64,000 bases of DNA from contig NZ_CP021645.1 of NCBI RefSeq assembly GCF_006384975.1, positions 2,880,001 to 2,944,000 on the forward strand. Direction: 5' to 3'. Positions within the stretch are counted from its first letter, which is position 1. Each line of letters starts with the position of its first letter. Both the position numbers and the translations under genes were made by a program. This document shows, piece after piece, positions 4,730 to 21,172 of this stretch. This DNA is from Pseudomonas oryzihabitans (GTDB lineage Bacteria; Pseudomonadota; Gammaproteobacteria; Pseudomonadales; Pseudomonadaceae). The notes beneath the pieces were generated by a model that was given only the letters and a program-made list of their open reading frames with translations, searched no databases and was not told the DNA's origin.

Positions 4730-4750
4730 CGCCGCTCCCCGCCATCAAGA

Positions 4751-5020: not shown

Positions 5021-5104
5021 GCGCGCCGAACGCTGCAATACCCTGCTCATCAGGGATAGATGAACGGCAAGCACGTAGGCTCCGGGGTAGATTCAGCCGT
5101 GAAC

Positions 5105-5827
5105 ATGCAATTCCAGATCAGCGATTGGCGCGCCTGGGCGCCTGGTCTCGTCGACCAGGACGCTTGGCGGCAGTGGTGCGCCGCGCCCTGGAGCCCGGCG
5201 GACGATGGCAGTCAACCCGATGCCAGCTTCCTGCCAGCCATGCAGCGCCGCCGCCTGAGCCGCCTGGCACGCATGACCTTCCAAGTGGCCTGGCCACTGG
5301 CCGATGCCCATGGCGCGCCGCTGCCGCTGATCTTCGCCTCGCGCCACGGCGAGACCCCGCGCACCCTGGCCATCCTCCAGGAGCTGGCCCGCGGCGAGCC
5401 GCTCTCCCCGACTCAGTTCAGCCTCTCGGTGCACAACGCCATCATCGGCCAGTGGTCGATCCTGCGTGGCGACCACAGCGAGATGAATGCCCTGGCTACC
5501 GGCCGCGACGGTCTCGAGCATGCCGTGCTGGAAGCTTGCACCCTGCTGGCCGAAGGCGCCACCGGGGTCCTGGTGGTGATCGCCGAGGAGGCGCCGCCAA
5601 CCCTCTATGCACCGCAGATCGACGACGTACCCTTTCCCTACGCCGTTGGCCTGCTGCTCACCCCTGGCAGCACCTGCGCCCTGAGTGGCGAGCCGGCGCC
5701 GACAGAAGCTGCGACCAGCAGTTGGCCCCACGCCCTGGAACTGCTGCGCCTGCTGGAAAGCCGCGGCGCCCTGCACCACGCCTACGCCGGGCGCGCCTGG
5801 CACTGGCAGGCGGAGGCCTACGGATGA
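5105..5827 (+). CDS. Short beta-ketoacyl-synthase-like protein (APE chain-length-factor type)
   Basis: About 240 residues resembling only the N-terminal half of a ketosynthase (Ketoacyl-synt_2 type), such as the short KS-like partner found at the head of aryl-polyene clusters. Seen: hydrophilic N-terminus MQFQISDWRAWAPGL, then the conserved SVHNAIIGQWSILRG block near residue 110. The Cys-His-His set of a full KS is not evident, so a non-catalytic partner or chain-length role for one of the full KSs is likely. The start is uncertain: ATG 5060 has AGGGA upstream but an unconserved leader, and GTG 5099 and ATG 5105 fit the usual family start. The stop overlaps the next gene (ATGA). Confidence 0.8.
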   Translation: MQFQISDWRAWAPGLVDQDAWRQWCAAPWSPADDGSQPDASFLPAMQRRRLSRLARMTFQVAWPLADAHGAPLPLIFASRHGETPRTLAILQELARGEPLSPTQFSLSVHNAIIGQWSILRGDHSEMNALATGRDGLEHAVLEACTLLAEGATGVLVVIAEEAPPTLYAPQIDDVPFPYAVGLLLTPGSTCALSGEPAPTEAATSSWPHALELLRLLESRGALHHAYAGRAWHWQAEAYG

Positions 5828-6591
5828 TCAACCGGCTGGACTACGGCTACCGACTGCTGGCCACGGGGCTCAATTTCGTGGTGTTCGGCTGCGGCGCGCT
5901 GATCTTCCGGCTGTTGGTCCTGCCCGTCCTGTTGGCGCTGCCGGGCGATACGCTACGGCGCCGCCAGCGTGCGCGGCGAGCCAACGCCTGGCTGTTCCGT
6001 TCCTTCGTCGCCTTCATGGTATTGACCCGGGTGATGAACCTACGCATCCAGGGCCGCGAGCGCCTGGGTCGCCCGGGCCAGTTGATCATCGCCAACCACC
6101 CCTCGCTGATCGACGTGGTGGTGCTCATCGGCCTGGTGCCCGATGCCAATTGCGTGGTCAAGCAAGGCCTCTGGCAGAATCCCTATCTCAAGCGGCAGAT
6201 CCAGGCCGCCGGCTACATCAGCAACGACGGCAGCGCCGAGATGCTCGATGCCGCCGCCGACTCCCTGCGCCAGGGCCAGACGCTGATCGTCTTTCCCGAA
6301 GGCACCCGCACCACCCCCGGCGAGCCCCCACGCTTCCATCGCGGCGCCGCCGCCATCGCCCTGCGCGGCGCTCGCTGCATCACCCCGGTGATCATCCGCG
6401 TGGTGCCCAGCACCCTGACCAAGGCCACGCCCTGGTATCGCATTCCGTCGCGGCGCTTCGACTTTCAGCTGGACGTCGGCGCCGACATCGACCCCACCAC
6501 CTTCGCCGGACGGCCGCTGCCGCTGGCGTCGCGTGAACTCAACGACCAGCTGCACCAGCTCTACCTGAAGGAAACCGGCAACCATGACTGA
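5824..6591 (+). CDS. PlsC-type lysophospholipid acyltransferase
   Basis: A 255-residue 1-acyl-sn-glycerol-3-phosphate acyltransferase-family protein. Two hydrophobic segments at about 15-45 and 60-75 precede the catalytic NHPSLID (HX4D) near residue 92 and the FPEGTR motif near 158. It is probably membrane-associated and transfers an acyl chain. In aryl-polyene clusters this enzyme is thought to help attach the polyene to, or build, its lipid anchor. The ATG overlaps the previous stop by ATGA and its own stop overlaps the first ACP by 8 bases, so translation is coupled. The acyl donor here (polyene-ACP or fatty acyl-ACP) is not determined by sequence. Confidence 0.88.
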   Translation: MINRLDYGYRLLATGLNFVVFGCGALIFRLLVLPVLLALPGDTLRRRQRARRANAWLFRSFVAFMVLTRVMNLRIQGRERLGRPGQLIIANHPSLIDVVVLIGLVPDANCVVKQGLWQNPYLKRQIQAAGYISNDGSAEMLDAAADSLRQGQTLIVFPEGTRTTPGEPPRFHRGAAAIALRGARCITPVIIRVVPSTLTKATPWYRIPSRRFDFQLDVGADIDPTTFAGRPLPLASRELNDQLHQLYLKETGNHD

Positions 6592-6844
6592 CCTCAACAT
6601 CGAGCTCAAAAGCCTGATCATCGAGGCACTCGGCCTCGAGGACGTCACCGTCGACGACATCGGCGACGAACAGACCCTGTTCGGCGACGGCCTGGGCCTG
6701 GATTCGGTGGATGCCCTGGAGCTGGGCCTGGCGATCCAGAAGCGCTATGGCATCCGCATCGACGCCGAAGCCAAGGACACCCGTACCCACTTCGCCAACG
6801 TCAACGCCCTCGCGGCCTTCGTCGCCGCCCAGCGCGCCGCCTGA
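6584..6844 (+). CDS. Acyl carrier protein 1 (APE)
   Basis: An acidic 86-residue carrier protein. The phosphopantetheine attachment serine is Ser41 in GLDSVDALELG, followed by the helix-II/III pattern of type II ACPs. It carries the growing aryl-polyene or the activated aryl starter as a thioester in the cytoplasm. It overlaps the acyltransferase stop by 8 bases and lies 10 bases before a second, different ACP. The DSVD (rather than DSLD) core is common in this cluster family. Which of the two ACPs holds the starter is not visible from sequence. Confidence 0.93.
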   Translation: MTDLNIELKSLIIEALGLEDVTVDDIGDEQTLFGDGLGLDSVDALELGLAIQKRYGIRIDAEAKDTRTHFANVNALAAFVAAQRAA

Positions 6845-6854
6845 GGAGAACGCC

Positions 6855-7109
6855 ATGCAAACCCGTGACGCCATCTTCGAGACCCTGCGCAACGCCCTGG
6901 TCGAACTCTTCGAGCTGGAGCCCGAGCGCGTGACCCTGGATGCCAACCTCTACGAGGACCTGGAGATCGACAGCATCGACGCCGTCGACCTGATCGACCA
7001 CCTGCGCCGCCAGACCGGCCACAAGATCGCCGCCGAACAATTCCGCCAGGTGCGCACCGTGGGCGATGTGGTCGAAGCGGTCCATCGCATCAGCCAAGCG
7101 GAAACCTGA
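6855..7109 (+). CDS. Acyl carrier protein 2 (APE)
   Basis: An acidic 84-residue carrier protein with the pantetheine serine Ser40 in EIDSIDAVDLIDHL. It has a strong GAGGAG Shine-Dalgarno 8 bases before the ATG. It is clearly distinct from the first ACP, so it is not a recent duplication. Paired, non-identical ACPs are a hallmark of aryl-polyene type II PKS loci; one is expected to take the ligase product and the other to serve the elongation cycle, but the division of labour here is inference. Confidence 0.93.
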   Translation: MQTRDAIFETLRNALVELFELEPERVTLDANLYEDLEIDSIDAVDLIDHLRRQTGHKIAAEQFRQVRTVGDVVEAVHRISQAET

Positions 7110-7119
7110 TCCGCCGCTT

Positions 7120-7692
7120 ATGAGTGCCCTGCCTTCCCGCTCCCCGCTGGGCCTGGTCGCCGGTGCCCTGCTGCTCCTGCTCGGCCTGGCCTATCCCTTC
7201 GCCGTCTATTTCGGCCTGCAGGCCCTCTCGCCACGGCTATTCGCCGCCGGTCTCGGTGCCCTTTGGGGGCTACGGCTGCTGCAACCCGGCCTCAATGGCC
7301 TGCAGCGCAGTACCGCCCTGGTCGCCCTGGGTTTCTGCCTGTTGCTGGCGCTGAGCGATGCCGCCGTGCTCTTGCGCTGGTATCCGGTGCTGCTCAGCCT
7401 GTTCCTGCTAGCGCTGTTCGGCCTGAGTCTGCTGCGTGGCCAGCCGGTGATCGAGCGGCTGGCACGGCTGCGCGAACCCGAGCTGCCGCCGCGGGCGGTG
7501 CGCTATACCCGCCGGGTGACCCAGGTCTGGTGCCTGTTTTTCCTGCTCAATGCCGCGACCGCCGCGGCCCTGGCGCTCTGGGCGCCGCTGGCCTGGTGGA
7601 CGCTCTATACCGGCGTGATCGCCTACGGCCTGATGGGCCTATTGTTCGCCGGTGAATGGCTGATCCGCCAGCGCGTGCGGAGGCAGCCATGA
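7120..7692 (+). CDS. APE-cluster integral membrane protein (COG4648-like)
   Basis: A very hydrophobic 190-residue protein with about six membrane segments, starting just after a basic N-terminus (MSALPSRSPLGL). The region around PELPPRAVRYTRRVTQVW is a charged cytoplasmic-type loop between the third-fourth and fifth-sixth segments. It resembles the uncharacterised membrane proteins seen in aryl-polyene clusters. No catalytic motif is visible. A role in membrane assembly or export of the polyene lipid is inferred from position only. The ATG at 7120 lies 10 bases after the ACP stop; the end overlaps the ligase start as ATGA. An upstream in-frame start would overlap the ACP and is unlikely. Confidence 0.82.
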   Translation: MSALPSRSPLGLVAGALLLLLGLAYPFAVYFGLQALSPRLFAAGLGALWGLRLLQPGLNGLQRSTALVALGFCLLLALSDAAVLLRWYPVLLSLFLLALFGLSLLRGQPVIERLARLREPELPPRAVRYTRRVTQVWCLFFLLNAATAAALALWAPLAWWTLYTGVIAYGLMGLLFAGEWLIRQRVRRQP

Positions 7693-9335
7693 ACGTCACG
7701 CCCCTGGCCGATCTGCTAGGCCCCGCGAGCCCATTAAGCGCCGCCCTGCAACAGCGCGCCCTGCGCCTGGCAGCGGCTTTCCAGGCGGCTGGACTCCAGC
7801 GCCTGGCCCTGCATCTCGACGACGCCGAGGATCTGGCCTGCGCCCTGCTCGGCGCCTGGCGCGCCGGGATCGAGGTGATCCTGCCGGCCGACGATCAATC
7901 CGCCACCCGCGCTCGGCTCACCCCGACCCTCGACGCCTGGCTGGACGACCTCGAAGGCTGGACGGCTGCCGAACCCCTGACGCCCGCCCTACTCGATCTG
8001 CAGGCGCCGCTGCTGACCCTGAGCACCTCGGGCTCCAGCGGTGAACCCAAACTGATCGCCAAGCAGCTGTTCCAGCTGGCCAACGAGGTGGCGGCCCTGG
8101 AGCGGTTGTGGGGTGAATCCCTCGGCGACGCCACTATCCTCGGCAGCGTCTCCACCCAACATATCTACGGCCTGCTGTTCCGCGTGCTCTGGCCGCTCTG
8201 CGCCGGTCGGCCCTTCGCCCGCCAGGCGCTGCCCTTCACTGAGGAGCTGCAACGGGAGACCGCCGCCCTGCTGCGCGAAGGCCGGCGGGCGGTATGGATC
8301 AGCAGTCCGGCGCTGCTCAAGCGCCTCGGCGAGAATCTCGACGACGCCATTCTCGGCCAGGTGGTGCGGGTGTTTTCCTCCGGTGGGGTGCTGCCGGAAG
8401 CGGCGGCTTCGGCTTGCCAGGCGCGCTTTGGCAGCTACCCCACCGAGGTCTATGGCAGCTCCGAAACCGGCGGCATCGCCTGGCGCCAAGGCCCCCAGCC
8501 CTGGCAAGCCTTCGCCGGCATCGAACTGGGCCAGGATCAGGAGGGTGCCCTCTGGCTGACCTCGCCCTATCTGCCTCAGGGTCTGCGCGAGCAGACCATG
8601 GATGGCGTGCGCCTGCTGGGTGACGGCCGCTTCGAGTTGCTCGGGCGCCTGGATCGCATCGTCAAGCTGGAAGAAAAGCGCATCGCCCTGCCGGCCCTGG
8701 AAGAACGCCTGCTGGGCCACCCGGCTATCGCCGACGTGCGCCTGGGTGTGGTGCACCAGGGTCGCGCCCTGCTCGGCGCCCTGGTGGCCCTGAGCGAGAG
8801 CGGCCTGCATCAGCTGCGCAACGGCGGTCGCCGCGCCCTGGTGGCCGAGCTGCGCGAACACCTGGTCGGCCATTGCGAGGCCATCGCCCTGCCCCGCCGC
8901 TGGCGCCTGCTGCTGGCGCTGCCCTACAGCGCCCAGGGCAAGCTGGCCCAGGCCGAGGTGGAGCGCCTGCTGGCCCAGCCAAGGCCGGTGGATATCGAGC
9001 CGCTGAGCGTCGAGCGCACGGCAGACGGCTGGCGCCTGGAGTTAACGGTCGCCCCGGACCTGGCGTTCTTTTCCGGCCATTTCCCCACGGCGCCGGTAGT
9101 GCCCGGAGTGGTACAGGTCGGCTGGGCCCAGCGCCTGGCCCGCCAGCACCTGGAGCTACCCGCTGACTTCGCCGGTCTGGAGGTGCTCAAGTTCCAGCAG
9201 TTGCTGCGGCCGGGTGATCGGGTGACCCTGACCTTCCACTTCGATGCCGCTCGCAGCAAGCTGCACTTCGCCTTTCGCCGCGGCGAGGCGGCCTGTTCGT
9301 CCGGGCGCATTCTGCTCAAGGAGAACACGCCATGA
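7689..9335 (+). CDS. AMP-dependent aryl/acyl ligase fused to hotdog dehydratase
   Basis: A 548-residue two-domain protein. Residues about 1-430 are an adenylate-forming enzyme: phosphate-binding loop STSGSSGEPK near 110, VYGSSETGG near 255, and the hinge region GRLDRIVKLEEKR near 320. It should activate an aryl acid (cinnamate or 4-hydroxycinnamate type) and load an ACP. Residues about 440-548 form a hotdog fold with FFSGHFPTAPVVPGV around His464, the FabZ/FabA-like dehydratase signature. In several characterised aryl-polyene loci these activities are separate neighbouring genes; here they are one polypeptide. The start overlaps the previous stop (ATGA). Confidence 0.9.
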   Translation: MNVTPLADLLGPASPLSAALQQRALRLAAAFQAAGLQRLALHLDDAEDLACALLGAWRAGIEVILPADDQSATRARLTPTLDAWLDDLEGWTAAEPLTPALLDLQAPLLTLSTSGSSGEPKLIAKQLFQLANEVAALERLWGESLGDATILGSVSTQHIYGLLFRVLWPLCAGRPFARQALPFTEELQRETAALLREGRRAVWISSPALLKRLGENLDDAILGQVVRVFSSGGVLPEAAASACQARFGSYPTEVYGSSETGGIAWRQGPQPWQAFAGIELGQDQEGALWLTSPYLPQGLREQTMDGVRLLGDGRFELLGRLDRIVKLEEKRIALPALEERLLGHPAIADVRLGVVHQGRALLGALVALSESGLHQLRNGGRRALVAELREHLVGHCEAIALPRRWRLLLALPYSAQGKLAQAEVERLLAQPRPVDIEPLSVERTADGWRLELTVAPDLAFFSGHFPTAPVVPGVVQVGWAQRLARQHLELPADFAGLEVLKFQQLLRPGDRVTLTFHFDAARSKLHFAFRRGEAACSSGRILLKENTP

Positions 9336-10069
9336 GCTTTCGGGCCTGCGCGGTGATCCCGGTGTTCGACCACGAACATGCCCTGCCACTGGTGGTGCAG
9401 GCTCTGCGTCAACGCGCCCTGCCCTGCGTGCTGGTGGACGATGCCTCCGGCCCCGCCTGCGCCCAGGTGATGGACGAGCTGGCGACCCAACCCGACATCC
9501 ATCTGCTGCGCCTGCCGGTCAACCAGGGCAAGGGCGGCGCGGTGATGGCGGGGCTCGCCGAGGCGCAGCGACTGGGCTTCACCCACGCCCTGCAGGTGGA
9601 CGCCGACGGCCAGCACGATCTCGCCGACGTCGCCGCCTTCCTGGCCGAGGCCCAGGCCCATCCCGAGGCGCTGATCTGCGGCTATCCGCGTTTCGACGAC
9701 TCGGTACCCAAGGGCCGGCTCTATGCCCGTTACCTCACCCACGTCTGGGTCTGGATCAATAGTCTGTCGCTCAAGATCCGCGACAGCATGTGCGGCTTTC
9801 GCGTCTATCCCCTGGCGCCGACCCTGGCGGTGATCCGCGCGGGTGGCCTGGGCAAGCGCATGGATTTCGACCCGGAGATCCTGGTACGCCTGGCCTGGCG
9901 CGACCAGCCCATGCGCTGGCGCCCGACCCGAGTGCACTACCCGCTGGATGGCCGCTCGCACTTTCGCCTCTGGCAGGACAACGTACTGATCTCGCGCATG
10001 CATACCCGGCTGTTCTTCGGCATGCTGGTGCGCGCGCCGCGCCTGCTCTGGCGGCGGATGCGCGGGTGA
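9332..10069 (+). CDS. Family 2 glycosyltransferase (APE cluster)
   Basis: A 245-residue GT-A glycosyltransferase of the dolichol-phosphate-mannose-synthase-like GT2 type. Seen: CAVIPVFDHEHALPLVVQAL at the N-terminus, LVDDASG near residue 35, NQGKGGAVMAGL near 65 and the metal/nucleotide motif DADGQHD near 88. There are no C-terminal membrane helices. It probably adds a sugar to the polyene or its lipid head group at the cytoplasmic face. It overlaps its neighbours on both sides (ATGA and GTGA). In enterobacterial APE loci a GT2 domain is, from memory, fused to the acyltransferase encoded next; here they are separate genes. Confidence 0.88.
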   Translation: MSFRACAVIPVFDHEHALPLVVQALRQRALPCVLVDDASGPACAQVMDELATQPDIHLLRLPVNQGKGGAVMAGLAEAQRLGFTHALQVDADGQHDLADVAAFLAEAQAHPEALICGYPRFDDSVPKGRLYARYLTHVWVWINSLSLKIRDSMCGFRVYPLAPTLAVIRAGGLGKRMDFDPEILVRLAWRDQPMRWRPTRVHYPLDGRSHFRLWQDNVLISRMHTRLFFGMLVRAPRLLWRRMRG

Positions 10070-10986
10070 GCGGTCACTGGGCGCAGCAACGCGAGCGCGG
10101 CAGCCCCGTGCTGATGCGTCTCACCGCCTGGTTGGCGCGGCACCTGGGCCGCCGCGCCATTGCCCCGCTGCTGCGGCTGATCGTGCTGTACTTCTTCCTG
10201 TTCGGCGGTCGTGCTCGCCGCGGCATCCTGGAGTACCAACAGCGTCTGGCCGCCTGGAGCGGACGCCCCGAGCCGGGTCCGAGCTGGCGCAGCGGCTACG
10301 CCCAGTTCATGGCCTTCGCCGAAGCCCTGCTGGACAAGCTCGACGCCTGGAATGGCCGCCTCGGCCTGGATCAGGTGCAATTGCATGACGACGATCAGGT
10401 CCATGCGCGGATGAACGCTCCCCGTGGCGAGATCCTGGTCACCGCCCACCTGGGCAATCTGGAGGTCTGTCGTGCCCTGGCCCAGTTGGGGCGGAGGGTC
10501 CGGCTCAATGTGCTGGTCCACACCCGTCACGCCGAGGCCTTCAATCGCCTGCTGGAAGAAGCCGGCGCCAACGACCTGCGGCTGATCCAGGTCAGCGAAT
10601 TGGACCCGGCGGTCATGCTGCAACTGAGCGAACGCCTGGAGCGCGGCGAATGGCTGGCCATCGCCGGTGACCGGGTGCCGCTGCACGGCGGACGCACCGT
10701 GGAAGTGGATTTCCTCGGCGCCCCGGCGCCCTTCCCCCAAGGGCCCTGGCTGCTGGCGCACCTGCTGCGCTGCCCGACCAACCTGCTGTTCTGCCTGCGC
10801 GAGGACGACGGCTATCACGTCTACCTGGAAGACTTCGCCCCTATTCCCGCCTGGCGCCGCCAGGAACGCGCCGCCGGCATCCAGGGCCTGGCCCAGGCCT
10901 ATGCCGAGCGCCTTGCCGCCTATTGCCTGAAGGCGCCGCGGCAGTGGTTCAACTTCTATCCGTTCTGGAGTCGCCATGAACGCTAA
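10066..10986 (+). CDS. LpxL/HtrB-like acyltransferase (APE cluster)
   Basis: A 306-residue membrane-associated acyltransferase of the lipid A biosynthesis (LpxL/HtrB) superfamily. Seen: one N-terminal hydrophobic segment (IAPLLRLIVLYFFLFGG, about 35-50), the HX4D/E-type motif in TAHLGNLE near residue 127, and the later GDRVPLHGG block near 205. It starts at GTG 10066, whose GTGA overlaps the previous stop; the frame is open further upstream only inside the GT2 gene. It probably transfers an acyl or polyene chain during anchoring of the pigment. It ends inside the ammonia-lyase start with an 11-base overlap. Confidence 0.85.
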   Translation: MSGHWAQQRERGSPVLMRLTAWLARHLGRRAIAPLLRLIVLYFFLFGGRARRGILEYQQRLAAWSGRPEPGPSWRSGYAQFMAFAEALLDKLDAWNGRLGLDQVQLHDDDQVHARMNAPRGEILVTAHLGNLEVCRALAQLGRRVRLNVLVHTRHAEAFNRLLEEAGANDLRLIQVSELDPAVMLQLSERLERGEWLAIAGDRVPLHGGRTVEVDFLGAPAPFPQGPWLLAHLLRCPTNLLFCLREDDGYHVYLEDFAPIPAWRRQERAAGIQGLAQAYAERLAAYCLKAPRQWFNFYPFWSRHER

Positions 10987-12502
10987 GGTAGTTTTCGGCA
11001 GCACCACCCTCGCCCTCGAAGACCTGGTGGCCCTGGCCGAAGGCCGCGCCGAGGCCGCCTTGCAGGAAGATCCCGCCTTCCGCGACGGCATCGCCCGCGG
11101 CGCACTCTTCGTCGATTCGCTGCTGGCCCGCGAAGGCTCGGTCTATGGCATCACCACCGGCTACGGCGATTCCTGCGTGGTCGCCGTGCCCCTCGCCCAG
11201 GTCGAGGCGCTGCCGCGCCAGCTCTACACCTTCCATGGCTGCGGCCTGGGTCGGCACCTGGACGCGGCGGCAACGCGCGCGGTGCTGGCCGCGCGGCTGC
11301 AGTCGCTGTGCCAGGGCGTCTCCGGGGTGCGCGTCGAATTGCTGGAGCGACTCACCGCCTTCCTGCGCGAAGACATCCTGCCGCTGATCCCCGAGGAAGG
11401 CTCGGTGGGCGCCAGCGGCGATCTCACCCCGCTGTCCTACGTCGCCGCCGCGCTCTGCGGTGAGCGCCAGGTGCTCTGGCGCAACGAGGTACGGGAGGCG
11501 GCCGACGTCCATGCCGAGCTGGGCTGGACGCCCCTGGTGCTCCGGCCCAAGGAAGCCCTGGCCTTGATGAACGGCACCGCGGTGATGACTGGCCTGGCCT
11601 GCCTGGCCTTCGCCCGCGCCGAGTATCTGTTGCACTTGGCCACCCGCATCACCGCCCTCAACGTGGTGGCCCTGGCCGGCAATCCCGAGCACTTCGACCA
11701 GCGCCTGTTCGCCGCCAAGCCCCATCCGGGCCAGGGCCAGGTGGCCGCCTGGCTGAGGACCGATCTCGCCGCCGAAGGTCCCGCGGCACCGTTGCACCGC
11801 TTGCAGGACCGCTATTCGCTGCGTTGCGCGCCCCATGTGCTGGGGGTGCTGGCCGACAGCCTGCCCTGGCTGCGCCAATTCATCGAGACCGAACTCAACA
11901 GCGCCAACGATAATCCGCTGATTGACGCCGAGGACGAGCGGGTGCTGCACGGCGGCCACTTCTATGGCGGCCACATCGCCTGCGCCATGGACAGTCTCAA
12001 GACCCTGGTGGCCAATGTCGCCGATCTGCTCGACCGCCAGCTCGCCCTGCTGGTGGATGCGCGCTACAACCACGGCCTGCCGGGCAACCTTTCCGGGGCG
12101 CCGGCCGAACGGGCCATGCTCAACCACGGCTTCAAGGCGGTGCAGATCGGCGCCAGCGCCTGGACCGCCGAAGCGCTCAAGGGCACCCTGCCGGCCAGCG
12201 TCTTCTCCCGCTCCACCGAATGCCACAACCAGGACAAGGTCAGCATGGGCACCATCGCCGCTCGCGACGCCCTGCGCGTGCTGGAACTCACAGAGCAGGT
12301 GGCCGCCGCCGCCCTGCTGGCGGCGCAACAGGGTGTCTGGCTCAGGTGCCAGCAGGGCGTGGAACCGCCCGCGCCCCTGGCCGCCATGCACCGGGAGTTG
12401 GCCGAGACCTTCCCTCCCTTGTTCGAGGATCGTGCCCTGGAGGCCGAATTGCGCCAGGCCCTGGGCCTGATCCGCGCCCGCCACTGGAGGCTCTATGCGT
12501 AA
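10976..12502 (+). CDS. HAL/PAL/TAL-family aromatic ammonia lyase
   Basis: A 508-residue lyase, the usual length for the histidine/tyrosine ammonia-lyase family. The MIO cofactor triad Ala146-Ser147-Gly148 sits in GSVGASGDLTPLSYVAA, the catalytic Tyr57 in VYGITTGYG, and the late NQDKVSMG block is present. At the substrate-selectivity loop the sequence is YTFHGCG with His87, as expected for tyrosine-specific rather than histidine-specific enzymes, so production of 4-hydroxycinnamate (p-coumarate) as aryl starter is inferred. Its position inside the APE operon, not a hut operon, supports this. It overlaps the acyltransferase and thioesterase genes on either side. Confidence 0.88.
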   Translation: MNAKVVFGSTTLALEDLVALAEGRAEAALQEDPAFRDGIARGALFVDSLLAREGSVYGITTGYGDSCVVAVPLAQVEALPRQLYTFHGCGLGRHLDAAATRAVLAARLQSLCQGVSGVRVELLERLTAFLREDILPLIPEEGSVGASGDLTPLSYVAAALCGERQVLWRNEVREAADVHAELGWTPLVLRPKEALALMNGTAVMTGLACLAFARAEYLLHLATRITALNVVALAGNPEHFDQRLFAAKPHPGQGQVAAWLRTDLAAEGPAAPLHRLQDRYSLRCAPHVLGVLADSLPWLRQFIETELNSANDNPLIDAEDERVLHGGHFYGGHIACAMDSLKTLVANVADLLDRQLALLVDARYNHGLPGNLSGAPAERAMLNHGFKAVQIGASAWTAEALKGTLPASVFSRSTECHNQDKVSMGTIAARDALRVLELTEQVAAAALLAAQQGVWLRCQQGVEPPAPLAAMHRELAETFPPLFEDRALEAELRQALGLIRARHWRLYA

Positions 12503-13501: not shown

Positions 13502-15822
13502 TCCGCCTGCAGCGCCCCTTCCTGCTGTTCCTCCTGGCCCTGCTGGCGCTCAGCGCCTGGCAGTGGCGGCACGGTCCGCCGGTGGCCGCCGATCTGCTGG
13601 CGCTCCTGCCCCAGGGCGCCGGTGATGCCCTCACCCAGCAGGCCGAGGCGCGCATGGCCGAGCCGCTCAATCGCGAGGTGCTCTTGCTGGTCGGTCATCC
13701 GCAACGCGAGCGGGTGGCGTCGCTGGCCGAGCGGCTGGGCCAGGCCTGGTCCCGGGAACCGCTGTTCGAAAAGGTACAATGGCAGCTCACGCCCGACCTG
13801 CCCGGCTTGCGCCAGCAACTCCTGGCCAGTCGCCTGGCGCTGCCATTGGGTCCGGCGCGCGACGAATTGATCAAGACGCCCGACGGCTATCTGCAGGCCC
13901 GCGCCGCCGCCCTCTTCGATCCCTTCGCCGGGGCCGGCGCCCTGCCCCTGGAGCAGGATTGGTTCGGCCTTGGCCTGCTCTTGCAGCGCCAGCTCACCCC
14001 GGCCAGCAAGGTCGACTTCGACGCTGGCAGCGGCCTCTTGCTGACCCAGGGCGACGGCCTGACCTGGGCGCTGATCCGCGCCCGCACCCGCGCCGATGCC
14101 TTCGATTTCGACGCCCCGCCGCGAGTGGAGGCCCTGATCGAGAGCGCCCGCCGTGAGGTGGTGGCCGACGGTGGTCAGTTGCTCGCCGCCAGTGGTCTGA
14201 GATACGCCGCCAATGGCCAGGCCACCGCCAGCCGCGAGATGTCGCTGATCGGTGGGTTCGCCACCCTGGGCACCCTGGCCCTGCTGCTGGGGCTGTTCCG
14301 CCGCTGGCGGGTACTGCTCAGCCTCCTGGCGGTGGGCGTGGCCCTCCTGGCTGGCAGCGCGGCCTGCGTGCTCTTGTTCGGCCAGATCAACGCCCTCACC
14401 CTGATCCTCGGTGCCAGCCTTACCGGGGTGGCCGCCGACTATCCGCTGCACTATCTCAGTAAGAGCTGGAAGGGCGGCCCCTGGGACGCCGAGGCCATCC
14501 TGCGCGAGACGCTGCCGGGGCTGTCCCTGAGCCTGGCCACCAATCTGCTGGGCTATATGGCGCTGGCCTGCACGCCCTTTCCGGCGCTGACCCAGGTGGC
14601 GGTATTTTCCGCCGCCGGCCTGATCGGCGCCTATCTCACCACCGTCTGCCTGTTGCCGGCCTGGTGGCAACGCCTGGACCTGGCGCCGCCGGCCGCGCCG
14701 CTACGCGTCATGCAGCGCCTGCTGGGCCTGCGCCTGCGGCTGCTGGCCCGCACCGGCAGCCTGCCGCTGCTCTTGGCGCTGCTAGCCTTTTGCGCCGCCG
14801 GCCTCTGGCAGCTGCACACCCAGAACGACCTGCGCCTCTGGCTCGGCCAAGACCCGGCGCTGACCCGCGAAGCCCAGGCCATCGCCCGCCTCACCGGCTT
14901 GCAACCCACCAGCCAGTTCTTCCTGGTGCGCGGCGCCAATGCCGACGAGGTGCTGCAACGCCAGAGCGCCCTGGGCCAGCGCCTGGAGGGATTGGTCGAG
15001 GAGGGTCAGCTACAGGGCTATCGCGCCCTGAGCGGCCTGGTCGCCCCCGCTGCCGCCCAGGCGGAACTGCGCCAGGCCCTGGCCGGCTGGGACGAGCGCC
15101 TGCAACCGCTGCTGGCCGTCGGCCTTCCCGCCGAGGCCTTGCAGGCGGAGCTGAAACAACTGCAACAACTGCCCGACGTGACGCTCGACCAGGCCCTGGC
15201 CGGCCCCCTGGGCGAACCCTGGCGCCCGCTCTGGCTGGGCCGGACGGCCGACGGCGGCGCCGCGGGCCTGGTCAGTCTGCAAGGCCTGGGTAACGCCCAG
15301 GTGCTGCAACAGGTGGCTGACGGTCTGCCCGGCGTGCAACTGGTGGACCGCCTGGGCGAATTGCGCGGGCTGTTCGTCCATACCCAGCGCCTGGCGGTGG
15401 AACTCAAGCTCTTGGCCTCGGGCGCCATCTTCCTGCTCTTGCTCTGGGCCTTCGGTCGTCGCGCGGCGCTGCGCATCGTCTGCCTGCCGCTGCTGGCCGC
15501 CTTGGCCGCCCTGGCCTGCCTGGGTTGGCTGGGCCAGCCGCTGACCCTGTTCAGCCTGTTCGCCCTGCTGCTGATCACCGCCATCGGCGTGGACTACGCC
15601 ATCCTCATGCACGAGGCCATCGGCGGCCCGGCGGTGAGTCTGCTCGGTGGCCTGCTGTCGGGCGTCGGCAGTTGGCTATCCTTCGGTCTGCTGATGCTCA
15701 GTAGTACCCCGGCCATCGCCAACTTCGGCCTGGCCATCAGCCTGGGCCTGGTGTTCAGCTTCCTGCTGGCGCCCTGGGCCTCGCCCCCTGTTTCCCACGA
15801 AAAGGAATTTCGCCATGGTTGA
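13498..15822 (+). CDS. MMPL/RND-family exporter (APE cluster)
   Basis: A 774-residue inner-membrane exporter made of two MMPL-like halves: one N-terminal segment, a periplasmic domain, a bundle of about five helices (residues about 245-400), a second segment near 415, a second periplasmic domain and a final bundle (about 640-770). Charged in-membrane positions appear in GASLTGVAADYPLHYLSK and AIGVDYAILMHEA, matching the proton-relay helices of this family. It is expected to move the pigment lipid out of the inner membrane. It begins at GTG 13498 (GTGA overlap) and ends 8 bases inside the next gene. Confidence 0.9.
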   Translation: MIRLQRPFLLFLLALLALSAWQWRHGPPVAADLLALLPQGAGDALTQQAEARMAEPLNREVLLLVGHPQRERVASLAERLGQAWSREPLFEKVQWQLTPDLPGLRQQLLASRLALPLGPARDELIKTPDGYLQARAAALFDPFAGAGALPLEQDWFGLGLLLQRQLTPASKVDFDAGSGLLLTQGDGLTWALIRARTRADAFDFDAPPRVEALIESARREVVADGGQLLAASGLRYAANGQATASREMSLIGGFATLGTLALLLGLFRRWRVLLSLLAVGVALLAGSAACVLLFGQINALTLILGASLTGVAADYPLHYLSKSWKGGPWDAEAILRETLPGLSLSLATNLLGYMALACTPFPALTQVAVFSAAGLIGAYLTTVCLLPAWWQRLDLAPPAAPLRVMQRLLGLRLRLLARTGSLPLLLALLAFCAAGLWQLHTQNDLRLWLGQDPALTREAQAIARLTGLQPTSQFFLVRGANADEVLQRQSALGQRLEGLVEEGQLQGYRALSGLVAPAAAQAELRQALAGWDERLQPLLAVGLPAEALQAELKQLQQLPDVTLDQALAGPLGEPWRPLWLGRTADGGAAGLVSLQGLGNAQVLQQVADGLPGVQLVDRLGELRGLFVHTQRLAVELKLLASGAIFLLLLWAFGRRAALRIVCLPLLAALAALACLGWLGQPLTLFSLFALLLITAIGVDYAILMHEAIGGPAVSLLGGLLSGVGSWLSFGLLMLSSTPAIANFGLAISLGLVFSFLLAPWASPPVSHEKEFRHG

Positions 15823-17062
15823 ACATCATCCCCTGGTCGTCATCGGGGCCGGCCCAGCCGGTGCCGTGGTCGCCGCCATGCTCAAGCGTCGCGGTCATGC
15901 GGTGCTGGTGCTGGAGGCCCAGCATTTCCCGCGCTTCTCCATTGGCGAGAGCCTGCTGTCCCACAGCCTGGACTTCGTCGAGGAAGCCGGAATGCTGCCG
16001 GCCGTCGAAGCGGCGGGGTTCCAGACCAAGGTCGGCGCGGCCTTCGCCTGGGGCGAGCGCTATACCGACTTCGACTTCCGCGACACCTACAGTGGCGGGC
16101 GCAGTACCTTCCAGGTCCAGCGCGGTCCCTTCGACAAGATCCTCGCCGACGATGCCGCACGCCAGGGCGTGGAAATCCGCTATGGCCAGCGGGTGACCGC
16201 CGTGACCCTCGGGGAAGACGGCGCCAAGACCCAGCTCGACATCCTGGGCGACGACGGCCATGCCTATCGCCTCAGCACCGACTTCCTGCTCGACGCCAGC
16301 GGCTATGGCCGGGTCCTGCCGCGGCTGCTGGACCTGGAGGCACCGTCCAACTTCCCCGTGCGCCGCGCGCTCTTCACCCACGTCGAAGACCGCATCGACG
16401 ATCCCGGCTTCGATCGCGAACGCATCCTCATCACCACCCACCCGACCCTGCGCGACGTCTGGTTCTGGACCATTCCCTTCAGCGATGGCCGCACCTCGGT
16501 CGGGGTGGTCGCCGCCGCCGAGCGTTATGCCGGACGCGCCCTTGATCTCGCCACCTGTCTGCGCGACTGGGTGGCCGAGACCCCGAGCCTGGCCCGGGTG
16601 CTGCACAATGCGGTCTGGGATACCCCGGTGCGCGAGCTGGGCGGCTACGCGGCCAACGTCAAGCGCCTGCACGGCCCCGGTTTCGCCCTGCTGGGCAATG
16701 CCGCCGAGTTTCTCGATCCGGTGTTCTCCTCGGGCGTCACCATCGCCCTGCGCTCGGCCAGTCTGGCCGCACCGCTGGTGGATCGCCAGTTGCGCGGCGA
16801 GCCGGTGGACTGGGAAGCCGAATTCGCCCGGCCGCTCAAGGCGGGCGTCGATACGTTCCGCGCCTATGTGGAGGGCTGGTACGATGGCAGCTTCCAGGAC
16901 GTCATCTATTTCGAGCACGCCCAGCCCGAGATCCGCAGCATGATCTGCGCCATCCTCGCCGGCTACGCCTGGGACGTTCGCAACCCCTTCGTCAAGGAAC
17001 CCAAGCGGCGCCTGCGCCTGCTCGTGGAGCTTTGCCAGCTGAATTCGGCCCATCCTGCATGA
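15815..17062 (+). CDS. FAD-dependent oxidoreductase (halogenase/GGR-like)
   Basis: A 415-residue flavoprotein with an N-terminal dinucleotide-binding fold (VVIGAGPAGAVVAAML, residues about 8-23) and the PRFSIGESLL motif near 45, characteristic of the tryptophan-halogenase/geranylgeranyl-reductase group. The second FAD motif GFALLGNAAEFLDPVFSSG lies near 288-306. The WxWxIP halogenase motif appears only as FWTIPF, so halogenation should not be assumed. Members of this group occur in aryl-polyene and xanthomonadin-type loci. Oxidation or desaturation of the chain is inferred. It overlaps the exporter and lipoprotein genes. Confidence 0.85.
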   Translation: MVEHHPLVVIGAGPAGAVVAAMLKRRGHAVLVLEAQHFPRFSIGESLLSHSLDFVEEAGMLPAVEAAGFQTKVGAAFAWGERYTDFDFRDTYSGGRSTFQVQRGPFDKILADDAARQGVEIRYGQRVTAVTLGEDGAKTQLDILGDDGHAYRLSTDFLLDASGYGRVLPRLLDLEAPSNFPVRRALFTHVEDRIDDPGFDRERILITTHPTLRDVWFWTIPFSDGRTSVGVVAAAERYAGRALDLATCLRDWVAETPSLARVLHNAVWDTPVRELGGYAANVKRLHGPGFALLGNAAEFLDPVFSSGVTIALRSASLAAPLVDRQLRGEPVDWEAEFARPLKAGVDTFRAYVEGWYDGSFQDVIYFEHAQPEIRSMICAILAGYAWDVRNPFVKEPKRRLRLLVELCQLNSAHPA

Positions 17063-17556
17063 CCTTGCTCCGTCCGCTCCTCTTCGCGCTGGCCTGCCTG
17101 CTGCTCGCCGCCTGCGCCAGCCAGCCGCCGCTGCCCAGCAGCCCGCCGCCACTGGCGCATGCCCTCGTCTACCAGGTGGAACGCCAGACCGCCGAGGGCA
17201 GCGACGCCCTGCTGCTGGCGATCCAGCCGGAGGGCGCGGCCCTGCGCTTTTCCCTGTTCGATCCCCTGGGCGTGCCCCAGGCGCGCCAGCGGCTGATCGA
17301 CGGCGCCTGGCACGCCGACGGCCTGCTGCCACCCAATCCCCAGGCGCGCACCTTCTTCAGCGTGCTGCTGTTCGCCCTGACCCCAACCGACCAGTTGCCA
17401 CGAGCCTATGCTGCGGGTGACTGGCAGCAGGCCGCCGACGGCAGCCGTACCCTCAAGGCCTGGCAGGTACGCTATCCCGCCGCCGATCGCCTGGAACTGG
17501 GCGCGCCGGAGCAGCCGAGCTACCGCCTGACCCTGCTACCGGAGTCCGCCCCTTGA
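17059..17556 (+). CDS. DUF3261-type lipoprotein (APE cluster)
   Basis: A 165-residue lipoprotein: signal segment MTLLRPLLFALACLLLAAC with lipobox LLAAC, then a beta-rich domain containing LRFSLFDPLGVPQARQRL. It resembles the short DUF3261-like lipoproteins found beside the LolA-like and MMPL genes of aryl-polyene clusters. It is probably an outer-membrane lipoprotein that accepts cargo from the LolA-like protein, by analogy with LolA/LolB; that pairing is inference. The ATG overlaps the previous stop (ATGA) and its own stop lies inside the TTG start of the next gene. Confidence 0.82.
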   Translation: MTLLRPLLFALACLLLAACASQPPLPSSPPPLAHALVYQVERQTAEGSDALLLAIQPEGAALRFSLFDPLGVPQARQRLIDGAWHADGLLPPNPQARTFFSVLLFALTPTDQLPRAYAAGDWQQAADGSRTLKAWQVRYPAADRLELGAPEQPSYRLTLLPESAP

Positions 17557-18737
17557 GCGCCTATCTCAACGCTCTGGGGCTGCTTTGTGCCCTGGGCCGG
17601 GGCAAGGCCGAGGTCGCCCGCGGCCTGTTCGCCGGCGACAGCTCCGGCATGCGACCCACCCCCGGCTGGATTCCCGAACGCCAGCCACCAGTGGGCACCG
17701 TCACCGCCGCCCTGCCGGCCTGGCCAGCGGCCTGGGCGCCCTTCTTCAGCCGCAACAACCAGCTCTTGCTGGCGGCCCTGACCGAAATCGAGCCCCAGGT
17801 GCGCCAGGCCATCGAGCGCCACGGCCCCGCCCGTATCGGCGTGGTGCTGGGCACCAGCACCTCGGGCATCCACGAGGCCAGCCAAGGCATCGCCGTGCAC
17901 CAGCGCAGCGGGCAACTGCCCGAGGGCTATCAATACGCCCAGCAGGAACTGGTGGCGCCCGCCGATTTCCTCGCCCGCTACCTGGGCTTGAGCGGCCCCT
18001 GCTACGGCCTTTCCACTGCCTGCACCAGCAGCGCCCGCGCCCTGCTCAGCGCCCGTCGGCTGCTGGTCCAGGGCCATTGCGATGCGGTGCTCTGCGGCGG
18101 CGTGGACAGCCTCTGCGGCCTGACCCTGAACGGCTTCGCCGCTCTGGAAGCGGTCAGCGAGACGCTGTGCAATCCCTTCTCGGTCAATCGCTGCGGCATC
18201 AATATCGGCGAGGGCGCGGCGCTGTTCCTGCTGACCCGCGAGCCAGGCCCCATCGCCCTGCTCGGCGGCGGCGCCAGTTCCGATGCCCACCACATCTCGG
18301 CTCCCGATCCCAGCGGTCGCGGCGCCATCCAGGCCATGCAGGCGGCCCTGCGCGCCAGTGGCCTGCAACCGGGCGACATCGGCTATCTCAACCTGCACGG
18401 CACCGCCACCCCGCACAACGACGCCATGGAAAGCCAGGCGACCCACCAAGTGTTTCCCGCCGGGGTGCCCTGCTCCTCGACCAAGCCGCTGACCGGCCAC
18501 ACCCTCGGCGCCGCCGGAGCGCTGGAAGTCGCCTTCGCCTGGCTGACCCTGGACCCGGTCCTCAACCCCGCGGGCCATTTGCCGCCGCAACGCTGGGATG
18601 GCCAGCCCGACCCGGCCCTGCCGCGCCTGGCGCTGACCGCGGGCGACAGCCGCCTGGACGGCCGCCGCCACGCCATGAGCAATAGCTTCGCCTTTGGCGG
18701 CAGCAACGTCAGCCTCATCCTCGGAGCCACGCCATGA
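17553..18737 (+). CDS. Beta-ketoacyl-ACP synthase, APE KS 1
   Basis: A 394-residue KAS I/II-type enzyme with a complete triad: Cys157 in LSTACTSSA, His in NLHGTATPHND (about 283) and His in TKPLTGHTLGAAG (about 316). It should condense malonyl-ACP onto aryl/polyene-ACP. The start is an uncommon TTG (17553-17555) whose TTGA overlaps the lipoprotein stop; no ATG gives the full N-terminus MSAYLNALGLLCALG. It is clearly different from the second KS at 19917, and either could pair with the short KS-like protein at 5105. It ends with an ATGA overlap. Confidence 0.92.
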   Translation: MSAYLNALGLLCALGRGKAEVARGLFAGDSSGMRPTPGWIPERQPPVGTVTAALPAWPAAWAPFFSRNNQLLLAALTEIEPQVRQAIERHGPARIGVVLGTSTSGIHEASQGIAVHQRSGQLPEGYQYAQQELVAPADFLARYLGLSGPCYGLSTACTSSARALLSARRLLVQGHCDAVLCGGVDSLCGLTLNGFAALEAVSETLCNPFSVNRCGINIGEGAALFLLTREPGPIALLGGGASSDAHHISAPDPSGRGAIQAMQAALRASGLQPGDIGYLNLHGTATPHNDAMESQATHQVFPAGVPCSSTKPLTGHTLGAAGALEVAFAWLTLDPVLNPAGHLPPQRWDGQPDPALPRLALTAGDSRLDGRRHAMSNSFAFGGSNVSLILGATP

Positions 18738-19183
18738 TCCCCTGGACCCTCGCCGAGCTGGTGCCCCACGCCGGCGACATGCTGCTGATCGACGAGATCC
18801 TCGCCTGTGACGAGGGCGGCATCGAGACCCGCCTGGTGGTACGCCCCGGCCTGTTCACCGATACCGACGGCGCCCTGCCGGCCTGGATCGGCGTGGAGCT
18901 GATGGCCCAGAGCGTGGCCGCCTTCGCCGGCTGCCAGGCGCGTCGCCGCGGCGAATCACCGGCGCTGGGCTTCCTGCTCGGCACCCGCCAGTTCGCCTGC
19001 GACGTGCCAGCCTTCCCCGCCGGCGCCGAATTGCGCATCCGCGCCCAGTCGGCGCTGGAAAACGAGGATGGCATGGCCATCTTCGACTGCCAGCTGCAGG
19101 GCCCTGGCTGCCAGGCCAGCGCCCGCTTGAACGTCTATCGTCCGCCCCAGGCGGATCTGTACCTAGAGGAACCCGCGCCATGA
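18734..19183 (+). CDS. 3-hydroxyacyl-ACP dehydratase (APE)
   Basis: A 149-residue single-hotdog protein of the FabZ-like dehydratase group used in aryl-polyene synthesis. His in ELVPHAGDMLLID (residue about 11) is the likely catalytic base and ELMAQSVAAFAG carries the second active-site region on the central helix. It removes water from 3-hydroxyacyl-ACP to extend the conjugated chain. A second dehydratase-type domain is fused to the ligase at 7689, so the operon has two. It overlaps both neighbours (ATGA). Confidence 0.88.
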   Translation: MIPWTLAELVPHAGDMLLIDEILACDEGGIETRLVVRPGLFTDTDGALPAWIGVELMAQSVAAFAGCQARRRGESPALGFLLGTRQFACDVPAFPAGAELRIRAQSALENEDGMAIFDCQLQGPGCQASARLNVYRPPQADLYLEEPAP

Positions 19184-19917
19184 GCGTTGCCCCCGCCCCG
19201 GTCCTGGTGACCGGCTCCAGCCGCGGCCTGGGCCGCGCCATCGCCCTGCGCCTGGCCGCCGCCGGCCATGACCTGGTGCTGCACTGCCGCAGCCGCCGCG
19301 AGGAAGCCGAGGCGGTGCGCGCCGAGGTCGAGGCCCTGGGTCGCAGCGCCCGGGTGCTGCAATTCGACGTCGGCGACCGCGCCGCCTGCGCCGCCATCCT
19401 GGAGGCCGACACCGAGGCCCACGGCGGCTACTACGGGGTGGTCTGCAACGCCGGCCTGACCCGCGACGGCGCCTTTCCGGCGCTGACCGGCGAAGACTGG
19501 GATATTGTCCTGCGCACCAACCTCGACGGCTTCTACAACGTGCTGCACCCGGTGGTCATGCCGATGATCCGCCGCCGCGCGCCGGGGCGTATCGTCTGCA
19601 TCACTTCGGTCTCCGGGCTGATCGGCAATCGCGGCCAGGTCAACTACAGCGCCTCCAAGGCCGGCCTCATCGGCGCCGCCAAGGCCCTGGCGGTGGAGCT
19701 GGCCAAGCGCAAGATCACCGTCAACTGCGTCGCCCCGGGGCTGATCGACACCGAGATCCTCGACGAGCACGTGCCAGTAGAGAAGATCCTCGAGATGATC
19801 CCCGCCGGGCGTATGGGCACCCCCGAGGAAGTGGCCCACGCCGTGGCCTTCCTGCTCGCCCCCGAGGCCGGCTACATCACCCGCCAGGTGCTGGCGGTCA
19901 ACGGAGGGCTGTGCTGA
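19180..19917 (+). CDS. 3-oxoacyl-ACP reductase, FabG-like (APE)
   Basis: A 245-residue classical SDR. The NADPH-binding motif TGSSRGLG lies at residues 11-18, NAG at 90-92, and the catalytic set Ser145, Tyr156 and Lys160 in the YSASK region. The order of motifs and the length are standard for FabG. It reduces the 3-keto intermediate in each elongation round of the polyene. It is embedded between the dehydratase and the second ketosynthase with 4-base and 1-base overlaps, so it is APE-dedicated rather than the housekeeping fabG. Confidence 0.92.
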   Translation: MSVAPAPVLVTGSSRGLGRAIALRLAAAGHDLVLHCRSRREEAEAVRAEVEALGRSARVLQFDVGDRAACAAILEADTEAHGGYYGVVCNAGLTRDGAFPALTGEDWDIVLRTNLDGFYNVLHPVVMPMIRRRAPGRIVCITSVSGLIGNRGQVNYSASKAGLIGAAKALAVELAKRKITVNCVAPGLIDTEILDEHVPVEKILEMIPAGRMGTPEEVAHAVAFLLAPEAGYITRQVLAVNGGLC

Positions 19918-21149
19918 TGAGCGGTCGCCGCGTCGTGATCACCGGAATGGCCGGCGTCACCGCCCTGGGCAGTGACTGGCCGACCATCCGCGCTAACTTC
20001 CTCGCCGGCCGGAGCGGTATCCGCCGCATGGACGCCTGGGATCGCTACACCGAGATGAACACCCGCCTGGGCGGGCCCATCGTCGACTTCCAGGTGCCGG
20101 GCCACTGGACCCGCAAGCAACTGCGCAGCATGGGTCGCGTCTCCCAGCTGGCGGTAGCCGCCGCCGAGTGCGCCCTGGCCGATGCCGGGCTGCTGGATGA
20201 CCCGAGCATCGCCGACGGTCGCATGGGCGTGGCCTGTGGCTCCTCCACCGGCAGTACCGACGACATCAAGGCGCTGGCCAACATGCTGCTCAGCGACGCC
20301 GCGGTGGGCCTCAACGCCAACACCTATGTGCGCATGATGCCGCACACCGCCGCCGCCAACCTGAGTCTGTTCTTCGGCCTCAAGGGCCGCTTGATTCCCA
20401 CCTCCAGCGCCTGCACCAGCGGCAGCCAGGGCATCGGCTATGCCTACGAGGCCATCAAGTTCGGGCGCCTGCCGCTGATGCTGGCCGGCGGCGCTGAAGA
20501 ACTCTGCCCCAGCGAGGCCATGGTCTTCGACACCCTCTATGCCACCAGCCTGCGCAACGACGCGCCCCACACCTCGCCACGGCCCTACGACCGCAGTCGC
20601 GACGGCCTGGTGATCGGCGAAGGCGCCGGCATCCTGGTACTGGAAGAACTGGAGCACGCCCTGGCCCGTGGCGCGCACATCCACGCCGAGATCGTCGGCT
20701 TCGGCAGCAACGCCGACGGCCAGCATTCCACCCGCCCCGAGCAGGCCACCATGCAGCGCGCCATGGAGCTGGCCCTGGAAGACGCCGGGCTGACCCCGGA
20801 CGCCATCGGCTACGTCAACGGCCACGGCACCGCCACCGAACAGGGCGACATCGCCGAAACTCGCGCCACCCAGGCGCTGTTCGGCGAGCGGATGCCCATC
20901 AGCTCGCAGAAGAGCTACCTGGGCCACACCCTCGGCGCCTGTGGCGCCCTGGAGTCCTGGTTCAGCATCGCCATGATGAACGAAGAACTGTTCGTGCCCA
21001 CTCTCAACCTCGATGAACTGGACCCCCAGTGTGGCGAACTGGACTATCTGCGCGGCGGGCCGCGGGCACTGCGCACCGACCACGTGATGAACAACAATTT
21101 CGCCTTCGGCGGGGTGAACACCTCGCTGATCTTCCGCCGCTGGTCCTGA
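19917..21149 (+). CDS. Beta-ketoacyl-ACP synthase, APE KS 2
   Basis: A 410-residue KAS II-like synthase. Cys166 lies in SSACTSGSQGIGYAYE, His in NGHGTATEQGD (about 302) and His in QKSYLGHTLGACGAL (about 336), so the triad is complete. It is the last biosynthetic gene of the operon. ATG 19917 shares its A with the previous TGA (TGATG) and has GGAGGG about 9 bases upstream; a GTG two codons earlier is also open. With the other full KS and the short KS-like protein, the locus has three KS-type units. Confidence 0.92.
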   Translation: MSGRRVVITGMAGVTALGSDWPTIRANFLAGRSGIRRMDAWDRYTEMNTRLGGPIVDFQVPGHWTRKQLRSMGRVSQLAVAAAECALADAGLLDDPSIADGRMGVACGSSTGSTDDIKALANMLLSDAAVGLNANTYVRMMPHTAAANLSLFFGLKGRLIPTSSACTSGSQGIGYAYEAIKFGRLPLMLAGGAEELCPSEAMVFDTLYATSLRNDAPHTSPRPYDRSRDGLVIGEGAGILVLEELEHALARGAHIHAEIVGFGSNADGQHSTRPEQATMQRAMELALEDAGLTPDAIGYVNGHGTATEQGDIAETRATQALFGERMPISSQKSYLGHTLGACGALESWFSIAMMNEELFVPTLNLDELDPQCGELDYLRGGPRALRTDHVMNNNFAFGGVNTSLIFRRWS

Positions 21150-21172
21150 TGCCCCTTGCCCGAGGTATGCCC

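Follow-up and report, generated by a model that had tools for sequence, protein, structure and literature searches.

A well-preserved operon assigned to aryl-polyene biosynthesis and export in Pseudomonas oryzihabitans

Gene content and organization

We analyzed a 64,000-nucleotide stretch of the Pseudomonas oryzihabitans genome (the window; positions 2,880,001 to 2,944,000 of contig NZ_CP021645.1, assembly GCF_006384975.1), which carries what is almost certainly a genuine, well-preserved operon for biosynthesis and export of an aryl polyene (APE), read from one conserved promoter (Table 1). The operon is of a widespread and ordinary kind that has already been reported in this clade, and it is worth a corrected annotation rather than being a discovery. 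According to the available portions of two papers, an APE cluster was identified by antiSMASH in P. psychrotolerans (PMC6676639) and APE variants occur in marine Pseudomonadaceae (PMC10165715).

A sequence-only reading of this DNA described 18 genes on one strand, mostly overlapping and with three non-ATG starts, and these points hold. All 18 frames are open on the + strand between 5105 and 21149, the starts at 10066, 13498 and 17553 are GTG, GTG and TTG, and 15 of the 17 junctions overlap (nine by 4 bases as ATGA, GTGA or TTGA, five by 8-13 bases, and apeQ-apeR by 1 base, given an apeR start at ATG 19917). This start is preferred over GTG 19911 because orthologues mostly have ATG or GTG at that residue. 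The only two gaps are of 10 bases each (6844/6855 and 7109/7120). The TTG start of apeO (17553) is retained in all eight sister-clade loci, and the start position is ATG in 71 of the 80 loci fetched for comparison.

Gene counts among these 80 loci miss genes that lie past contig ends or past the 10-kb flank, and apeC was reached in only one of them, plus separately in three more genomes. The sister clade comprises eight loci (L002-L009), the nearest records, which include P. oryzihabitans, P. rhizoryzae and Pseudomonas sp. 102515. Their halogenase-like proteins are 92-97% identical to that of the window, and their ape genes are 84-99% identical and in the same order (apeC was seen in one). This gene order is shared more widely by APE clusters of P. 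oryzihabitans, P. psychrotolerans, Pseudomonas sp. 102515 and further Pseudomonadaceae.

The span proposed earlier contains the 18 genes but stops short of the end of the operon. A nineteenth gene, overlooked in that reading, starts at an ATG (21149) inside the apeR stop codon and encodes a lipoprotein homologous to ApeA; an alternative ATG lies at 21167. An apeA homologue is located at most 150 nucleotides behind apeR in 16 of the 77 loci that hold at least 800 nucleotides there. The operon thus has 19 genes and extends from 5105 to 21571. The next gene, for a 149-residue secreted protein with no match in a Pfam search, is possibly its last member, as a homologue occurs within 800 nucleotides behind apeR in 47 of the 77 loci.

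With the nineteenth gene included, 16 of 18 junctions overlap. The yardstick, 50 kb of another species, E. coli K-12, has overlaps between 6 of 27 same-strand neighbors (Fisher p = 1.1e-5). The ape cluster of E. coli also overlaps (11/17 junctions), so dense overlap comes with this type of cluster. The E. coli ape paper itself remarks on overlapping reading frames, in the part of its text available (PMC8253772), and tight gene packing is a known habit of APE clusters.

Table 1. Features of the APE operon and its immediate surroundings. Percentages are amino acid identities.
Feature	Position	Strand	Evidence
Sigma-70-type promoter, TTGCCT-17-GATAAT	4992..5020	+	Scan and conservation
Highly conserved operon leader	5021..5104	+	Column conservation, 8 sequences
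apeC, chain-length-factor-like ketosynthase N-domain	5105..5827	+	PF13723 240.8 bits, full length; 6qsp_B 4e-29; 35% to E. coli ApeC
apeD, PlsC-type acyltransferase	5824..6591	+	PF01553; 39% to E. coli ApeD
apeE, acyl carrier protein (LGLDSVD)	6584..6844	+	NF006617 over cut-off; 58% to E. coli ApeE
apeF, acyl carrier protein (EIDSID)	6855..7109	+	NF003757 over cut-off; 53% to E. coli ApeF
apeG, membrane protein	7120..7692	+	47% to E. coli ApeG over 133 residues
apeH-apeI fusion, AMP ligase and hot-dog dehydratase	7689..9335	+	PF00501 (AMP-binding domain), PF22818 ApeI-like; halves match E. coli ApeH (32%) and ApeI
apeJ first half, family 2 glycosyltransferase	9332..10069	+	PF00535; 55% to E. 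coli ApeJ residues 3-242
apeJ second half, LpxL-type acyltransferase, GTG start	10066..10986	+	PF03279; 38% to E. coli ApeJ residues 247-553
Aromatic amino-acid ammonia-lyase (MIO motif ASGDL)	10976..12502	+	PF00221 521 bits; FH/NQD signatures
apeK, 4HBT thioesterase	12495..12929	+	PF13279; 52% to E. coli ApeK
apeL, LolA-like periplasmic carrier	12917..13501	+	PF19574; 31% to E. coli ApeL
apeM, MMPL/RND-type exporter, GTG start	13498..15822	+	29% to E. coli ApeM over 634 residues, E 4e-55
Flavin-dependent halogenase-like protein	15815..17062	+	PF04820; 3nix 352 bits; K72, WxWxIP, FxxPxxSxG
apeN position, small lipoprotein, proposed LolB-like	17059..17556	+	Synteny and lipobox-like LAAC only
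apeO, elongating ketosynthase, TTG start	17553..18737	+	NF006618 530.6 bits; 6qsp_A 1e-111; 51% to E. coli ApeO
apeP, dehydratase	18734..19183	+	PF22817 ApeP-like 69.4 bits; 32% to E. coli ApeP
apeQ, ketoreductase	19180..19917	+	NF004200, TIGR01831 over cut-off; 54% to E. coli ApeQ
apeR, initiating ketosynthase	19917..21149	+	NF006587 723.6 bits; 58% to E. coli ApeR
apeA homologue, lipoprotein	21149..21571	+	37% to E. coli ApeA (residues 21-135), E 9e-18
149-residue secreted protein, possible last operon gene	21652..22101	+	Homologue behind apeR in 47/77 loci

Promoter and leader

A scan of 4700-22800 found one sigma-70-like site where 0.7 would be expected by chance, so the scan alone proves nothing. 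The promoter call is supported by conservation across the genus. Its hexamers (TTGCCT and GATAAT) are invariant in all eight genus sequences, window included, and TTGCTA-17-GATAAT was read by eye at the same place in three other Pseudomonas genomes (L098-L100). The single recognizable promoter proposed earlier is therefore borne out as TTGCCT-17-GATAAT in the window, and the promoter is conserved, with TTGCTA as first hexamer outside the genus set, in the Pseudomonas species examined.

The leader that follows has 78 of 84 columns invariant in eight sequences, compared to 130/156 in the 5' end of apeC and 73/130 upstream. Across these sequences it is more conserved than the coding sequence after it. 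The leader is possibly a regulatory site. A structured RNA was considered and rejected, since no Rfam family reached its gathering score and the predicted fold is not unusually stable (z 1.13; 174 of 200 shuffles were at least as good). The only Rfam matches were two weak ones, both on the opposite strand inside apeC. Also rejected was ATG 5060 as the start of apeC: in the alignment, the interval from 5060 to 5105 is interrupted by small insertions in five of the seven sister sequences and therefore looks like leader rather than coding sequence.

Assignment to the aryl-polyene family

Significant counterparts were identified for 16 of the 18 Ape proteins of E. coli CFT073. The best solved matches of ApeO and ApeC are 6qsp_A and 6qsp_B, respectively, which we take to be the Xenorhabdus ApeO-ApeC complex. 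The catalytic Cys/His/His motifs are kept in 80/80 ApeO and 77/77 aligned ApeR sequences, NYSASK in 80/80 ApeQ and LGLDSVD in 24/24 ApeE, window included throughout. The operon encodes the components expected of an APE cluster, which is of the type II polyketide synthase kind: the ApeO ketosynthase with a truncated ApeC chain-length factor, ApeR, two acyl carrier proteins (ACPs), a ketoreductase, two APE-type dehydratases that score over their cut-offs, and an AMP ligase predicted to load an aromatic acid. ApeD, ApeJ, ApeL, ApeM and ApeA of the export and acyltransferase set were matched by similarity, and the protein in the ApeN position was placed by position alone. Pfam searches returned nothing over cut-off for apeG or apeM; ApeG is COG4648 in the available text of the E. 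coli ape paper (PMC8253772).

The earlier assignment to the APE family is thus upheld by profiles, by solved structures and by gene-by-gene comparison to E. coli. A fatty-acid or dialkylresorcinol-type cluster is an exceedingly improbable alternative: FabG- and FabF-like profiles score high on ApeQ and ApeR, but this is contradicted by PF22817, PF22818, the 6qsp pair and the 16 E. coli counterparts. The ketosynthases match APE proteins, and an origin in fatty-acid or other polyketide synthase families was rejected on their profiles, 6qsp and the matches to E. coli ApeO and ApeR. No dar genes were identified among the 19 cluster genes, to which this search was confined.

Three results weigh against the assignment. 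By blastp, the protein in the ApeN position is not significantly similar to E. coli ApeN, the passages of literature consulted report no APE isolated from this clade, and the genome has no real match to E. coli ApeB (best 27.5 bits, 22% identity). For the ApeN-position protein, hhalign gives a probability of 7.4%, and its proposed LolB-like nature was confirmed by neither blastp nor hhalign. ApeB, the head-group methyltransferase, is present in E. coli and is not required for membership in the APE family.

Like the ape cluster of E. coli CFT073 (apeA-R), the operon lies on one strand, with overlapping genes, and encodes an ACP pair, three ketosynthases, a dehydratase pair, and LolA and MMPL proteins. 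In the window, by contrast, one fused gene covers both apeH and apeI, two genes cover apeJ, apeA stands at the end rather than the start, apeB is lacking, and genes for an ammonia-lyase and a halogenase-like protein are added. Both additions are common in pseudomonad ape loci.

Proposed pathway

Gene content, gene order, active-site motifs and promoter conservation are observations; each enzymatic step proposed here, and the order of steps, is drawn from characterized homologues. In this scheme, ApeHI would use its AMP-ligase half to load a carrier protein, probably ApeE, with an aromatic acid. The chain would then be elongated with malonyl units by ApeR and ApeO-ApeC, with reduction by ApeQ and dehydration by ApeI/ApeP in each round to yield a conjugated polyene. 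We predict that ApeD and both halves of ApeJ join this polyene to a lipid and that four further proteins, ApeM, ApeL, the lipoprotein in the ApeN position and ApeA, move it to the outer membrane. Less certain are supply of the starter by the cluster's own ammonia-lyase, which would be of the phenylalanine or tyrosine ammonia-lyase (PAL/TAL) type, and modification of the aryl head by the halogenase-like protein.

The ammonia-lyase and the starter unit

The genome encodes three PF00221 proteins. One is HutH by profile (729.7 bits, cut-off 539) and a second HutH-like protein, encoded outside the window (L086:1501-2871), scores 509.7 bits, just below the cut-off. The ASGD (MIO) motif is lacking in the stretch of this second protein that was read. 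The cluster lyase scores 382.6 bits with the HutH profile and 404.4 bits with a tyrosine-lyase profile, below cut-off in both cases. It has the signatures FH and NQD, shared by all 74 orthologues aligned, where both HutH-like proteins of the genome have SH and QED instead. Assignment of the cluster lyase as HutH was rejected on its profile score and its lack of the SH and QED signatures.

The F of the first signature aligns where two PDB chains differ as H versus F; these are presumably Rhodobacter TAL and its H89F mutant. This first motif is an unsafe guide, because FlxA of flexirubin synthesis, whose tyrosine lyase activity is proven, combines a first motif like that of histidine ammonia-lyase with a second of the TAL/PAL type (available text of PMC3992019). 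Judged from its sequence, we favor Phe or Tyr over His as the substrate of the cluster lyase, with no choice between Phe and Tyr.

An alternative to a lyase-derived starter is 4-hydroxybenzoate produced by UbiC, as proposed for E. coli, with the lyase having another or an optional role. We consider this a serious contender, at somewhat less than an even chance. A UbiC-type chorismate lyase (PF04345) is present in the genome, and ApeH of E. coli and of the window share the same best profile. The latter is a 4-coumarate-ligase profile, which we dropped as evidence for a coumarate starter since it is also the best profile of E. coli ApeH, described as a 4-hydroxybenzoate enzyme. Further support comes from L009 (P. 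oryzihabitans DE0602, of the same clade), which lacks the lyase and has the second half of apeJ and apeK 36 nucleotides apart. A search of the L009 genome returned no close lyase copy (best matches 37% and 34% identical). In a sister that keeps the lyase, HutH-like proteins are 37-35% identical to the cluster lyase, similar to the L009 matches. These results, like the loss of the ligase argument, count against a lyase-derived starter: the remaining cluster is present in L009, so the lyase is not always needed, and its standing as a fixed cluster part is weakened. The L009 finding also raised our estimate for 4-hydroxybenzoate from unlikely to its present level. Either the starter in L009 is a different one (4-hydroxybenzoate from UbiC, for example) or the strain makes no normal product.

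Set against a 4-hydroxybenzoate starter is the position of the lyase gene in the operon, overlapping its neighbors on both sides, and its presence in 75 of the 80 fetched loci (one copy is cut at a contig end). Four other loci end before its place, and only L009 is truly without it. The signatures that separate the cluster lyase from both HutH-like proteins of the genome argue the same way, as does flexirubin synthesis, which draws its starter from such a lyase (PMC3992019, available text). That paper also provides a parallel, the flexirubin cluster of Chitinophaga pinensis, where an aromatic ammonia-lyase and a coumarate-ligase-type enzyme similarly act at the start. Unlike that system, the window cluster lacks the dialkylresorcinol genes, and no FlxJ-type methyltransferase was found in the genome. 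The L009 locus itself (L009:6645-6681) shows a clean absence of the lyase gene from an ape cluster that is full in other respects.

A more specific proposal is that the clade makes a new APE chemotype, with an aryl head derived from Phe or Tyr via the in-operon lyase, halogenated on the carrier protein and unmethylated. We regard this as unlikely, and the L009 finding lowered our estimate slightly. If true, it would represent a flexirubin-like start in a gammaproteobacterium.

The halogenase-like protein

The best solved match of the halogenase-like protein is 3nix, titled as a flavoprotein/dehydrogenase; halogenases including ChlB4 and PltA follow at 148 bits and less. An active-site Lys, WxWxIP and FxxPxxSxG are marks of the flavin-dependent halogenase family, and the Lys of GFQxK, W-[FY]-W-[TS]-IP and FLDPVFSSG are kept in 81/81 sequences, window included. 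As 3nix also has the matching Lys, WxWxIP and FLDPxFSSG, halogenation stays a prediction.

The gene is closely tied to the ape cluster. It occurs together with the apeN-position gene and apeO in 80/80 fetched loci, and among 109 family genomes (E 1e-80) ApeO and the halogenase-like protein are each present in 49, with both in 47, only ApeO in two, only the halogenase-like protein in two and neither in 58. The two genomes with only the halogenase-like protein are in 310 and 340 contigs. A literature search on "aryl polyene" and "flavin-dependent halogenase" returned none, which says little as subscription papers mostly lie outside such a search. Xanthomonadin clusters of Xanthomonas are similar in carrying a gene described as a halogenase, and Lysobacter, without a halogenase, makes a non-brominated pigment (available text of PMC3691225). 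The xanthomonadin clusters differ in their XanB2-type starter enzyme, where the window cluster has a lyase. The presence of lyase and halogenase-like genes with APE genes across Pseudomonadaceae, and of one sister without the lyase, leads to testable predictions of head-group chemistry.

Absence of a methyltransferase gene

The cluster was earlier described as complete. This overstates the case: in addition to the overlooked apeA, neither E. coli ApeB nor the S-adenosylmethionine (SAM)-dependent methyltransferase of related loci was found. The latter is encoded between the halogenase-like gene and the apeN position in 56 of 79 related loci. A membrane protein of ~385 residues is encoded between apeM and the halogenase-like gene, also in 56 of the 79. 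Both extra genes are present in 47 loci, only the methyltransferase in nine, only the membrane protein in nine and neither in 14, and the window, unlike the 47, has neither. The 14 comprise the eight sister-clade loci and six others, and absence of both genes was therefore dropped as a clade-unique trait. The membrane protein (e.g., L010:8836-9999) is multi-spanning, has no Pfam match and is absent from this clade.

No Pseudomonas methyltransferase was identified in 13 genus genomes at E 1e-20; as a control, the search found it in 3/3 carriers and 0/3 clade genomes. In the genome of the window, the best match to this methyltransferase is 26.5 bits. E. coli ApeB is nearest to the FlxJ methyltransferase family (470 bits, below the family cut-off of 560). 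The product is probably unmethylated, in contrast to the E. coli APE, and a cluster without the methylation gene should not be read as the full E. coli set.

Yellow pigmentation and the carotenoid cluster

The operon was also thought to explain a yellow, cell-bound pigment, a claim undermined by a separate carotenoid cluster in the genome and by zeaxanthin diglucoside in a close relative. We consider it likely that the operon makes a polyene and that the main yellow source is a zeaxanthin diglucoside-type carotenoid cluster inside G000:C1:294000-307000. This concerns phenotype and leaves the identity of the operon unaffected. Genes for a hydroxylase, phytoene synthase, desaturase-type oxidase, lycopene cyclase and glycosyltransferase lie side by side, along with a YegS-like kinase and gluconate-2-dh3 (gluconate-2-dehydrogenase subunit), as in the published cluster, and an FMN_dh protein of 349 residues, the length of the published idi product. 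Most genes of the published zeaxanthin diglucoside cluster are thus represented, but CrtE was not identified among the ten frames scanned. The carotenoid cluster is located at L101:3875-12036, outside the window.

Phytoene synthase (PF00494) is present in 13/13 genus genomes and ApeO in 10/13 (E 1e-60). Three genus genomes (G002, G004 and G005) have phytoene synthase yet no match to ApeO or the halogenase-like protein. A record named Pseudomonas sp. 102515 (L008) carries the same ape cluster, and the available text of PMC6676639 identifies the yellow compound of Pseudomonas sp. 102515 as zeaxanthin diglucoside. That text characterizes one major peak from high-performance liquid chromatography, however, and an APE may still contribute to the color. 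Given the carotenoid cluster and the compound in this relative, loss of yellow is a poor test of the operon, and an ape cluster in a yellow pseudomonad does not have to be the source of that color.

Neighboring genes

Upstream of the operon, a major facilitator superfamily (MFS) transporter is encoded at 3452-4729; 36 of 79 related loci have a homologue of it on the downstream side of apeR. Farther along the window are tandem genes for SdiA-regulated family proteins (PF06977; 27521-28423 and 28497-29417).

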